Assembly (NCBI GenBank): GCA_019459485.1
Contig: JAIBEZ010000068.1
Location: forward strand, 1 to 52,144
Origin: Prolixibacteraceae bacterium
GTDB lineage: Bacteria > Bacteroidota > Bacteroidia > Bacteroidales > Prolixibacteraceae
Length of the DNA: 52,144 nt
Reading direction: 5' to 3'
Shown here: positions 14,813 to 38,770 of the stretch, piece after piece
Numbering within the stretch: the first letter of the stretch is position 1
Layout of the letters: the number at the start of each line of letters is the position of its first letter
Notes under the pieces: model-generated
What the model saw: the letters and a program-made list of their open reading frames with translations, nothing else
The model's database searches: none
What the model was told of the DNA's origin: nothing
Translations under genes and position numbers: made by a program

Positions 14813-14879
14813 TTTTCAGGATTGAAAAATGAAAAGGATACGGTTTTTTGCTTTTTCGCCGAAAGCTTCAAAATCCAGA

Positions 14880-15070
14880 CTCGAACAGGCAGGTCTTCTG
14901 ACTTATCCCCTTTTTAACCCCTTCCCGCCCCTCCCGATAGTTCTCGGGACGGACAGTGGTAAATCATTAAAAAGTTATACAGGACTTACAGCAGCGGGAA
15001 CTGTACAGGAATCATCCATTTTGAAGGATTCACCTGTTTCCCTTTTACATTCCGAAAATCGGAAACCTAT
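14880..15070 (-). ncRNA. Cobalamin (B12) riboswitch
   Basis: On the minus strand, in order: AAAAGGGAAACAGGTGAAT (about 15029-15047), the B12-box-like CCCGCTGCTGTAAG (about 14985-14998), and AGTCAGAAGACCTGCC (14889-14904). These are the conserved blocks of the cobalamin aptamer (AAGGGAA, GGTGAA, CCCGCxACTGTAA, GTCAGxAGACCTGCC) in the right order and spacing. An internal stem CCCGAT/ATCGGG variant is at 14933-14948. The plus-strand open frame 14829-15146 is an accident of this RNA. The element should repress the downstream B12 uptake operon when cobalamin is abundant. Confidence 0.92.
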
Positions 15071-15127
15071 TCGCCGACAAATGTACACAAAAGTTCGAAA
15101 CGGAGGAATTAATCTGGTAAAAGTGGT

Positions 15128-33834: not shown

Positions 33835-34131
33835 GTATTTATTTGCCTATCTATAATTTATATTATTGTAAATCATTCCGTAAGCCTTTACTGGCACCAA
33901 CATACGCATAATAAATATTCAATAAGTTGACTATCAGCAAATTAGAATAATTACAAAAATATTAATTTTTTTTCATTTTTTAAATGCCTGAGTTATAAAG
34001 TAGTTATCTAATTTTCGTAAAAGTCAATAGCAAAACCATTTTTTTTATACTTTTTTTTTCACAAAATTTGTTTCAGGGAAATAAATCTAGGGAATACAGT
34101 TTTGTCAAATCTTTTAATATCCGGCTCCAAA
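33835..34131 (+). other. AT-rich leader before dnaA
   Basis: 297 bp with long T runs at 33960-34075 (TTTTTTTTCATTTTTT, CATTTTTTTTATACTTTTTT). It holds the dnaA promoter in all likelihood, but no clean TAnnTTTG was found. I found no cluster of DnaA boxes (TTATCCACA), so an origin here is not supported. Confidence 0.4.
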
Positions 34132-35562
34132 ATGATTAATGATCATCGTTTGGTTTGGGATCGTTGTCTATCAGTCATTCGAGACAATGTTCCAGGCATT
34201 AGCTTTAAAACTTGGTTTGAGCCAATCGTTCCAGTAAATCTGGATGAAGAAGTTCTAACCATCCAGGTACCAAGTCCATTTTTTTATGAATATCTGGAAG
34301 AACAGTACATTGATTTGTTGAGGAAAACCCTGCGTAAAGAAGTTGGACAGGGAGCCAAACTGGAATATGTAGTGGTTATGGGAAACAACCAAAGCAATTC
34401 GCAGCCATACACGGTTAAATATCCAACGAGCAATAACAGCAAAATTCAGAATAAACCGATGAGCATTCCGCTTAAAAACGACGGAAAGCAATCGATCAGG
34501 AATCCTTTTATTATTCCGGGAATTCAAAAAATTCAGATTGATCCGCAATTGAGGCTCGATAATACTTTTGATAATTTTGTTGAAGGTGAATGCAACCGGT
34601 TGGCACGGAGCGCAGGTTATGCTGTTTCGCAAAATCCAGGGGGAACTGCCTTTAATCCGCTGATGATCTATGGCAATTCGGGTCTTGGGAAAACCCATTT
34701 GGCCCATGCAATTGGTATTGAAGTAAAGGAAAGCCATCCGGATAAAGTGGTACTTTATGTGAATGCCAATAAATTTCAAACACAGTTTACAGAAGCAACA
34801 CGAAACAATAACCGAAACGATTTTCTGAATTTCTATCAGATGATTGATGTGCTGATTCTGGACGATGTTCATGAATTTGCAGGTAAGGAAAAAACACAGG
34901 AAACATTCTTTCATATTTTCAATCATTTGCACCAAAGCGGCAAGCAGTTGATTTTAACTTCCGACAAACCACCGATTGAACTAAAAGGACTCGAACAACG
35001 ACTTCTTTCAAGATTTAAATGGGGTTTAACAGCAGATTTACAGCAACCCAGTTTCGAGACCCGAATGGACATCCTGAAACGGAAGATCTACAAGGACGGA
35101 ATCGAAATATCAAATGAAGTTTTGGAATACATTGCTTCGCACATCAGCAACAATATCAGGGAACTGGAAGGTGCTTTGGTTTCATTGCTTGCACAGTCAA
35201 CGCTCAACAAAAAAGAAATCACCATCGAGCTTGCCAGCGAAATGATCAATAAGCTGGTGAAAAATTCGAAGAGAGAATTGTCGATCGATTACATTACAAA
35301 AGTTGTTTGCGATTATTTCAACATGCCGGTTGACTCGCTTCAGGCCAAAACCCGCAAACGTGAAGTCGTTCAGGCACGGCAACTCGCCATGTATTTTTCG
35401 AAAAACATGACCAAATCGTCGCTCGCTTCCATCGGTTCGCAAATCGGGAACAAGGATCACGCAACAGTACTTCATGCCTGTAAAACAGTGAATAACCTGA
35501 AAGAAACCGATAAAAATTTCAAGCTTTGTGTGGACGAAATTGAAAGAAAACTGAAATTATAA
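34132..35562 (+). CDS. dnaA: Chromosomal replication initiator DnaA
   Basis: 476 aa from ATG 34132; the frame extends to a TTG at 34102, but the family begins at about HRLVWDRCLSVIRDNVPG. Domain I 1-90 (FKTWFEPIVPV), linker, AAA+ domain with Walker A GNSGLGKTHL and Walker B VLILDDVHEF, sensor II region, and domain IV ending in the DNA-binding signature IGNKDHATVLHACKTV. It opens the replication origin. A terminator follows immediately, so it is transcribed alone. Confidence 0.98.
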   Translation: MINDHRLVWDRCLSVIRDNVPGISFKTWFEPIVPVNLDEEVLTIQVPSPFFYEYLEEQYIDLLRKTLRKEVGQGAKLEYVVVMGNNQSNSQPYTVKYPTSNNSKIQNKPMSIPLKNDGKQSIRNPFIIPGIQKIQIDPQLRLDNTFDNFVEGECNRLARSAGYAVSQNPGGTAFNPLMIYGNSGLGKTHLAHAIGIEVKESHPDKVVLYVNANKFQTQFTEATRNNNRNDFLNFYQMIDVLILDDVHEFAGKEKTQETFFHIFNHLHQSGKQLILTSDKPPIELKGLEQRLLSRFKWGLTADLQQPSFETRMDILKRKIYKDGIEISNEVLEYIASHISNNIRELEGALVSLLAQSTLNKKEITIELASEMINKLVKNSKRELSIDYITKVVCDYFNMPVDSLQAKTRKREVVQARQLAMYFSKNMTKSSLASIGSQIGNKDHATVLHACKTVNNLKETDKNFKLCVDEIERKLKL

Positions 35563-37079: not shown

Positions 37080-37150
37080 AAGGAAGGTGGTTGTTAATAA
37101 CCTTTTCATAACAATTGAATGCCACATGCGAATAACTTATAAAAACAAGT

Positions 37151-37158
37151 TAATTTTG
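37151..37158 (+). promoter_or_regulatory. -7 element TAATTTTG of pyrBI leader
   Basis: Perfect TAnnTTTG about 8 bp before the ATG of the leader ORF at 37166 and 222 bp before pyrB. The 5' leader of pyrB would therefore be over 200 nt. Confidence 0.6.
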
Positions 37159-37165
37159 GATTTTA

Positions 37166-37411
37166 ATGAAACACCTGATAAAACAATATTATCACTTCTT
37201 CGGTGAAATTATTCGCCCCGAAAAAGTATTTCCAGTTTCCCTGAATTGTTTTCATCAGTCAAACGATTTGACACATTTCTTATTATTCCCGGAATTTCCC
37301 ATTCCACTAAAAACCAACAGAGAAGCTATTTCTGTTGGTTTTTTTTTGCTTCATACACACTTAAAAATCAACACGCAAAATGAAGAAGAACGATTTAATT
37401 TCAATTACTGA
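37166..37411 (+). CDS. Candidate pyrBI leader peptide (pyrL-like)
   Basis: 81 codons, starting 8 bp after a -7 box, running through a terminator hairpin (37309-37347) and ending 31 bp inside pyrB. The protein has no recognisable domain and is Phe-rich where the DNA is T-rich ([11 protein letters not shown] is read across the T run). In E. coli, pyrL has the same arrangement: a short ORF that ends near pyrB and through whose translation ribosomes disrupt the attenuator at low UTP. A pause-type hairpin (GTCAAA CGA TTTGAC, 37258-37272) followed by a T-rich run lies upstream of the terminator. Whether the ORF is translated is unknown; it may be chance. Confidence 0.4.
37309..37347 (+). terminator. 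Terminator/attenuator before pyrB
   Basis: Perfect 10-bp arms AACCAACAGA (37312-37321) and TCTGTTGGTT (37331-37340) followed by seven more T. It ends 33 bp before ATG 37380. It may simply end the EamA-yigZ transcript; with the promoter at 37151 it could also act as a pyrBI attenuator. Confidence 0.75.
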
Positions 37412-38291
37412 TTATTCAAAAGAAGACTATCTGCACATTTTGGAACTTGCAGCCGATTTTGAAAAAAATCCAAACCAGAGACTACTTGAAGGCAAGGTAG
37501 TCGCTTCTTTGTTTTTTGAACCTTCCACCCGCACCCGGTTGAGTTTCGAGACTGCCATCAACCGTTTGGGTGGCCGTATTATTGGCTTTTCTGATGCAGG
37601 CTCATCAAGTGTTTCGAAAGGAGAAACATTGCACGATACGATCCGAATGGTAAGCAATTACGTCGATCTTATTGTGATGCGCCATCATTTAGAGGGGAGC
37701 GCAAGGTATGCAGCCGAAGTGGCGGATGTTCCGGTCATCAATGCCGGCGACGGAGCCAACCAGCACCCAACCCAAACCCTGCTCGACATGTATTCAATCC
37801 TGAAAACCCAGGGAACGCTCGACAACATCAACATTTTCATGATTGGTGACCTGAAATACGGTCGCACCGTTCATTCGTTACTTATGGCGCTTTCTGAATT
37901 CGAAAAACCAATTTTCAATTTCATTGCTCCTGAAGAACTGGCCATGCCCGAAGAATACAAATTATTCCTGAAAGAAAAGGGTATCCGGTTTTTCGAGCAC
38001 ACCGAGATCAACGAAAACATCAATCATGCTGACATTATTTATATGACACGGGTTCAGAAAGAACGGTTTATGGATCCGATCGAATACGAAAAAGTAAAAA
38101 ATGTGTACATTCTGAGAAACAACATGTTGAATGACACCAAACCCAACATGCGCATCCTTCATCCGCTTCCAAGGATCAACGAAATTCATCCCGATGTTGA
38201 CAAAAACGAAAAAGCATACTATTTTACACAAGCCAAAAACGGCGTTTATACCCGTCAGGCAATCATAGCACATATCCTCAACCTTAAATAA
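37380..38291 (+). CDS. pyrB: Aspartate carbamoyltransferase catalytic subunit
   Basis: 303 aa. Carbamoyl-phosphate loop [15 protein letters not shown], the [19 protein letters not shown] segment, and the HPLPR active-site motif are intact. It makes carbamoyl-aspartate in pyrimidine synthesis. The adjacent pyrI shows it works in the allosteric dodecamer class B type. Start ATG 37380 follows an A-rich stretch; the leader ORF overlaps its first 31 bp. Confidence 0.97.
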
Positions 38292-38299
38292 ATACAGCC

Positions 38300-38770
38300 A
38301 TGAGCGATAGTTTAAAAAAGAAACTAAAACTGAAAGTCAGTGCAATCAACGATGGCACTGTAATCGATCACATTCCTTCTGAAAATCTGTTCAAGGTAAT
38401 ATCCATTCTGGGGCTCGAAAAAGTGAAATCTCAAATTACGTTTGGATTTAACTTCGAAAGCGAAAAAATGGGCAGCAAAGCCATCATAAAAGTATCGGAT
38501 GTATTTTTTGAAGACGACGAAATCAACAAAATTTCGCTGATTGCCCGCAATGCCAAGCTAAACATCATTCGCGACTACGAAGTTGTGGAGAAGCGGGTAG
38601 TTGAAGTTCCGGACAAAGTAATTGGCATCGTGAAATGTTTTAATCCGAAGTGCATTACCAACAACGAAGAAATTACCACCTATTTCAATGTAATTTCAAA
38701 AAACCCGCTCGACCTGAAGTGTAAATACTGTGAGAAAATTACCCACGAACACCAAATGGTGATAAAATAA
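38300..38770 (+). CDS. pyrI: Aspartate carbamoyltransferase regulatory subunit
   Basis: 156 aa. N-terminal allosteric domain (LKVSAINDGTVIDHIPSENLFKVISILGL) binds nucleotide effectors; the C-terminal zinc domain has the four Cys in C-x4-C (CFNPKC) and C-x2-C (CKYC) that contact PyrB. It lies 8 bp after pyrB. Its presence predicts CTP feedback inhibition. Confidence 0.96.
   Translation: MSDSLKKKLKLKVSAINDGTVIDHIPSENLFKVISILGLEKVKSQITFGFNFESEKMGSKAIIKVSDVFFEDDEINKISLIARNAKLNIIRDYEVVEKRVVEVPDKVIGIVKCFNPKCITNNEEITTYFNVISKNPLDLKCKYCEKITHEHQMVIK

Follow-up and report, generated by a model that had tools for sequence, protein, structure and literature searches.

A probable translation-dependent attenuator with a covarying start-locking helix ahead of pyrBI in Bacteroidota

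The pyrBI operon in a contig of a Prolixibacteraceae bacterium (assembly GCA_019459485.1, JAIBEZ010000068.1; the whole stretch of 52,144 nucleotides that was analysed is called the window here) is preceded by a leader which, judged by comparison with its relatives, appears to be a real and conserved attenuator of pyrBI in Bacteroidota. The reading we favour, as a somewhat better than even proposition, is that of a translation-dependent transcription attenuator in which a long-range helix, P1, locks the start of a leader ORF. The near-leaderless start of this ORF and the start-locking helix are additions to the earlier sequence-only reading of this DNA, and the covarying lock is a new element of pyrBI attenuation. 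No description of pyrB attenuation of this kind in Bacteroidota was among the matches listed by a search of the open literature.

All elements of the leader lie on the plus strand. A sequence scan locates the −7 promoter box TAATTTTG at 37151–37158. The leader ORF of 81 codons has its ATG at 37166 and ends at 37411, so that its last 32 nt are shared with the beginning of pyrB (37380–38291), which encodes the aspartate carbamoyltransferase catalytic chain. An intrinsic terminator, the attenuator, spans 37309–37347; its stem, AAAAACCAACAGA..UUUCUGUUGGUUUUU, occupies 37309–37343 and is followed by a T run. A perfect −7 box, an 81-codon ORF starting 8 bp past it and running into pyrB, and a strong terminator had all been described by the sequence-only reading, and all are present. 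The next ORF call, 38300–38770, we take from reading the sequence to be pyrI, the regulatory chain. The operon (to 38770) lies downstream of a gene at 34102–35562 which, again from reading the sequence, is presumably dnaA-like; in Draconibacterium orientale (L081) pyrB also sits no more than a few kb from position 1 of the chromosome record. The same assembly holds a second pyrB (C16:8973–9881; protein 94% identical) with its own complete leader and a 71-aa ORF (leader in L131), which is either a second copy or a sign of a mixed assembly. Elsewhere in the window, a Cobalamin riboswitch (Rfam RF00174, 94.4 bits) is found at 14871–15085 on the minus strand.

In Flavobacterium psychrophilum the TAnnTTTG box is located at −12 to −5 (available text of PMC9723704), and the start in the window is therefore predicted near 37163, which would make the ORF almost leaderless. 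We infer that transcription starts at about 37163, 0–5 nt before the leader AUG. Such starts are uncommon in the phylum: 5′ UTRs shorter than 10 nt make up about 3.7% according to the accessible part of PMC7366714, and that of PMC9723704 gives 5.5% leaderless. No other perfect TAnnTTTG was found on the plus strand in the 420 nt upstream of pyrB. The segment TGTTAATAACCTTTTCATAAC at 37092–37112, some 40–60 nt upstream of the −7 box, is by eye similar in many members of the genus and is possibly an upstream promoter or operator element. A different possibility is that UTP exerts its effect when transcription begins, through slippage on the first UUUU (in the window, ATTTTAATG), leaving the attenuator secondary. 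Many leaders do have a T run past the box, and slippage is known at E. coli pyrBI and carAB (PMC6245113, from the text available); many other leaders, however, carry no T run there (aacc-ATGATG, for example), and we regard this explanation as very improbable.

The conservation of the leader ORF was examined upstream of related pyrB genes. A total of 110 pyrB loci gave 85 distinct upstream regions, and 20 more came from further genomes; in named records, many of the window's closest relatives are labelled Prolixibacteraceae and single ones, for example, Chitinophaga or Odoribacter. L015 and L042 were dropped as no pyrB ATG was found in them, and L048, L070 and L091 as less than 300 nt was available upstream; L070 still entered the P1 set described below. 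For L111–L130 only the initial part of pyrB entered the identity measurement, and thus L119 (terminator-stem and box/ORF counts) and L122 (terminator-stem count) stand in the groups of at least 76% identity, though each is about 70% identical over the whole protein. L082 and L111 are the same sequence as read.

Loci were picked by a terminator with a perfect box 80–200 nt before it, ORFs being ignored, which gave 47 loci with 53 boxes. An ATG lies 10–19 nt past the box in 47 of the 53 cases, against 7.6 expected from shuffles, and from 41 of these 47 the frame is open to the terminator (5.9 expected). The disruptions of the frame in relatives that the sequence-only reading had named as counter-evidence were thus not seen. 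With a slightly wider window for the ATG, its frame is open in 42/48 and the other two frames in 1/48 and 5/48; the commonest offsets of the ATG are 15 (23/48) and 12 (16/48). This selection left out 16 loci that have the terminator and lack a perfect box, seven of which (L006, L007, L012, L016, L041, L054 and L058) show an ATG and an ORF of 60–65 aa behind a box with one mismatch. In the set of 63 regions with pyrB identity of at least 76% and at least 300 nt upstream, 56 combine a box of at most one mismatch with an ATG and an ORF that extends at least to −75, the exceptions being L029, L082, L084, L111, L112, L113 and L119. The conserved ATG and open frame argue that the leader ORF is very probably translated, and nearly leaderless. 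A much simpler explanation would be an ordinary terminator of the upstream gene followed by a chance ORF, with the pyrB promoter placed after the terminator. An intergenic terminator alone is commonplace, yet the ATG and frame counts, the helix statistics given below and the lack of any perfect promoter box between terminator and pyrB leave this next to no probability; the sequence-only reading had also named a transcription start between 37347 and 37380 as counter-evidence, and the box scan gave no sign of one.

The leader peptide itself appears to matter little. Its sequence drifts and the frame that reads the terminator varies between species, as expected if translation itself counts and the peptide does not. 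In family members with a perfect box the ORF is 41–98 aa long, save for the first ATG of L067 (2 aa) and the second box of L057 (20 aa). Phe is the commonest residue (11.7%); Asp (2.0%), Arg (6.9%) and Trp (0.3%) are among the rest, and in the 41 leaders counted no residue of a regulated amino acid is enriched. A protein function for the leader ORF was considered and rejected, there being no Pfam match at E 0.1. Taking the longest ATG per box (n = 47), the ORF stops short of the stem in 5 and ends inside the stem in 3, between the stem and −3 in 10, within −3 to +6 of the pyrB start in 21 and beyond this in 8; an end at +32, as in the window, is found in 5/47. The +32 overlap is thus one of several end points, and translational coupling of the leader ORF to pyrB by overlap is possible.

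For the RNA that runs from 37160 to the end of the terminator, the fold is better than that of every one of 200 dinucleotide shuffles (z = −5.1); for 37160 to 37411, z is −4.2 against shuffles. The terminator stem CCRAY..RTTGGY is present in 46 of the 64 regions whose identity is about 76% or higher, and in 4 of the 38 with lower identity; apart from the two pyrB copies, the one place in this genome with the stem motif is a 397-aa ORF, which contains it once. Independently of the frame in which it is read, the ACCAACA/UGUUGGU stem (37309–37343) is often kept, both across the family and in a small number of others. This conserved stem sequence is outside what an attenuator with a start lock explains. 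It could instead be that the leader senses a protein or small ligand through P1 and the hairpin P2 (below) or through this stem, translation being one input only. The conservation of P1 and P2, the keeping of the stem sequence where frames differ, and the existence of a conserved carA leader lacking a conserved ORF all favour such a sensor. The conserved frame shows, on the other hand, that translation matters, and no Rfam family, riboswitch or PyrR-type, reaches the gathering score in the leader region; we consider this possibility distinctly improbable. Rfam matches below the cut-off were taken as chance.

The hairpin P2 (GGUGAAAUUAUUCGCC, 37202–37217), pause-like in character, lies inside P1. 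It covaries across the family (z = −8.4 and −5.4), and within the genus two-sided changes are seen in two of its six pairs. When P2 and the terminator are taken together in the genus, the covariation score beats 500/500 shuffles, the number of pairs with a two-sided change is matched by 73/500 and that of pair types by 494/500. On the 3′ side of P2 an A-rich spacer leads into a pyrimidine-rich tract, UUUCCAGUUUCCC (37229–37241), 12–24 nt past the hairpin, which we propose as the pause site. The spacing between P2 and the tract resembles that of hairpin-stabilised pauses. The fraction of U peaks at 0.55–0.56 at 12–13 nt past P2 (55 leaders), UUUU is found no further than 23 nt from P2 in only 19 of 41 representatives, and the leader as a whole shows no enrichment in U (33% U, 32% A). 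The covariation of P2 and the U peak would be consistent with pausing of RNA polymerase in the tract after P2; the UUUU count and the overall U content speak against it. The sequence-only reading had instead placed a pause hairpin, with a T-rich run, at 37258–37290. Its small hairpin is indeed present at 37258–37272 and is only weakly kept in the genus: it is identical in 5 of 19 sequences, 4 have fewer than four pairs, and the rest carry other hairpins. Testing each leader's own strands against those of other leaders gave z = −0.5 to −2.5 for this hairpin, against −8.4 for P2, and P2 is the better candidate.

In most leaders of the family the 5′ end of the RNA, usually with the start codon, can pair with a segment 80–120 nt downstream; this is P1. 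In the window the best register pairs 37175–37187, beginning 9 nt past the A of the ATG, with 37245–37258, the latter strand resting on the pairing and covariation tests; by eye, a shorter register pairs 37166–37173, AUG included. The 5′ strand of each leader was paired with its own 3′ region and with that of every other leader, after leaders shorter than 120 nt had been removed (63 to 55). Own pairing was better with z = −8.0 for the 55 leaders, and after thinning at 80, 70 and 62% identity z was −7.1, −6.2 and −5.4 for 41, 33 and 22 leaders. None of 20,000 permutations in each set was as good as own pairing; since the pairing was first spotted by eye and the windows were set afterwards, the argument rests not on p-values but on control windows of the same leaders, which gave z = −1.5 to +0.8. 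If the AUG is left out and only the codons after it are used, z is −3.5 and −3.2 for 15 nt and −2.9 and −2.5 for 9 nt. Compensating pairs can be seen in GATGCAACG with CGTTGCATC (L085), GCGTTTAAA with TTTAAACGC (L072), ATGATGAAAC with GTTTCATCAT (L061) and CGCTTAATCGA with TCGATTAAGCG (L087). The energies of P1 in single leaders are often unremarkable against shuffles.

When the RNA ends at the terminator, the minimum-energy fold contains both P1 and the terminator in the window and in 31 of 36 representatives. In the minimum-energy fold of the read-through RNA (37160–37411) P1 is absent and its 3′ strand pairs the beginning of pyrB, 37242–37253 lying opposite about 37385–37397 in the first codons; in this folding model such pairing could affect translation of pyrB. 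The same kind of modelling gives the start region a mean accessibility of 0.57 in RNA of 70 nt and of 0.37 once 110 nt have been made. A loss greater than 0.2 is predicted for 21 of 41 representatives and a rise by that much for two; with the 3′ part shuffled, 20% of sequences also lose accessibility. For the window the values are 0.88 at 70 nt, 0.70 at 110 and 0.58 at 145, and its own start lock is weak by this model.

The strongest competitor is the plain logic of E. coli pyrL with no lock at all, in which the ribosome only follows the polymerase closely and P1 serves the stability of the RNA or limits peptide synthesis on terminated RNA. Conservation of the frame alone suffices for it, and in the window itself P1 does little to hide the start codon, no start-codon base being paired in its best duplex. 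Against it, the covariation of P1 involves the start region, and at least two start-codon bases are paired in the best duplex of 36 of the 41 representatives. We judge it unlikely, though worth keeping in mind.

The attenuator with a start lock, which we prefer, would operate as follows. Transcription would begin 0–5 nt upstream of the leader AUG; the polymerase would make the AUG, then P2, and would then pause in the pyrimidine-rich tract. While it is held there, the second strand of P1, which hides the start, would still be unmade. At low UTP the pause would be long, a ribosome would load on the free 5′ AUG and, translating behind the polymerase, would cover the terminator, and pyrBI would be made. 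At high UTP the polymerase would move on, the second strand of P1 would pair with the 5′ end, usually including the AUG, ribosome loading would be blocked, the terminator would fold and transcription would stop. Comparison among relatives supports the translated frame, P1, P2 and the terminator, and the order in which they occur; what we infer is where transcription starts, that the polymerase pauses, that UTP is the signal and that loading and locking race each other. A lock that closes the entry site right after the pause would turn a short pause into a sharp on/off choice. If the reading is right, translation-coupled attenuation of pyrBI would extend to another phylum and near-leaderless initiation would be tied to it.

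The leader is frequent in the window's family (the 56 of 63 regions above) and, by eye, sporadic in other families of Bacteroidales (L090/L174, L184, L188, L189/L116, L094, L100 and L102). A class-wide survey was of little use, since beyond the order the top match is a distant PyrB, for the most part 33–43% identical. The carA leader of this genome (L191 1313–1480) and of related ones (L196–L218) has a nearly invariant terminator around ATGCGTTTGCCCTACAGCCGTAGCCAAACGCATTTTTTTT and no conserved ORF. Of 22 carA loci in the window's family that have sufficient upstream sequence, only 10 have box and ATG together, although the terminator is conserved; since the ATG is often missing, carA was kept as a negative control. 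Its leader is a candidate non-coding attenuator of carAB in the family. The pyrE and uraA genes of the same genome were checked by eye for the pyrBI design, and neither showed it.

Clues to leader-peptide attenuation in Bacteroidota are given in the available text of PMC9723704 and PMC7366714; the cases described there concern amino-acid operons or a hypothetical gene, and the main text of PMC7366714 has no match to "pyrB". The leader of Sinorhizobium meliloti trpL offers a parallel in that its RNA starts at the AUG of a leaderless leader peptide (accessible text of PMC7298713). It differs in working by Trp codons and alternative hairpins, whereas the pyrBI leader has no standout regulated residue; trp/his-type runs of regulated-amino-acid codons were not found in the 41 leaders. 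An antiterminator of the trp/his type would be exclusive with the terminator; P1, the helix examined in this respect, stands beside the terminator in the 31 of 36 folds mentioned above.

The closest likeness is to E. coli pyrL–pyrBI, in which, under limiting UTP, pauses on a U-rich template let the coupled ribosome prevent the terminator from forming (PMC10135430 and PMC5021804, from the text available). Both have a leader ORF running through an intrinsic terminator, a hairpin followed by a pyrimidine tract and an ORF end near the start of pyrB. They differ in that E. coli pyrL has a Shine-Dalgarno-like GGGAGG site and an ORF of 44 aa, whereas the ORF of the window's family is near-leaderless and has 41–98 aa, and in that the 33% U of the family leader compares with 49% given for pyrL in the available text of PMC10135430. 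Covariation backs the start-locking helix in the window's family, whereas for E. coli and four relatives there is only a predicted fold of this topology. When the pyrL leaders of E. coli, Klebsiella, Proteus, Photobacterium and Aeromonas (L163, L226–L229) were folded, each of the five had its Shine-Dalgarno or AUG region paired to the tract that follows the middle hairpin, and the GGGAGG region of E. coli is modelled as fully paired once the RNA reaches 90 nt. Among 120 permutations, own pairing takes rank 2 and two control windows take ranks 64 and 119. A purine-rich entry site and a pyrimidine-rich tract pair easily, and three of the five leaders are unremarkable against shuffles (E. coli, 47/500); the lock in pyrL is therefore a lead, and these folding models are suggestive only of a P1-like topology shared by the gamma-proteobacterial leaders. 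No statement of a Shine-Dalgarno lock in pyrL was among the matches listed by the literature search or in the accessible parts of PMC10135430 and PMC4824070. It is tempting, if rather doubtful, to see pyrBI attenuation in Bacteroidota and gamma-proteobacteria alike as a race in which the pause precedes the strand that locks the ribosome-entry site, UTP being read as loading time. Under this reading E. coli pyrL would have the same lock, formed by the Shine-Dalgarno site with the tract after the pause hairpin, and the start-lock reading thereby yields a direct prediction for mutants of E. coli K-12.
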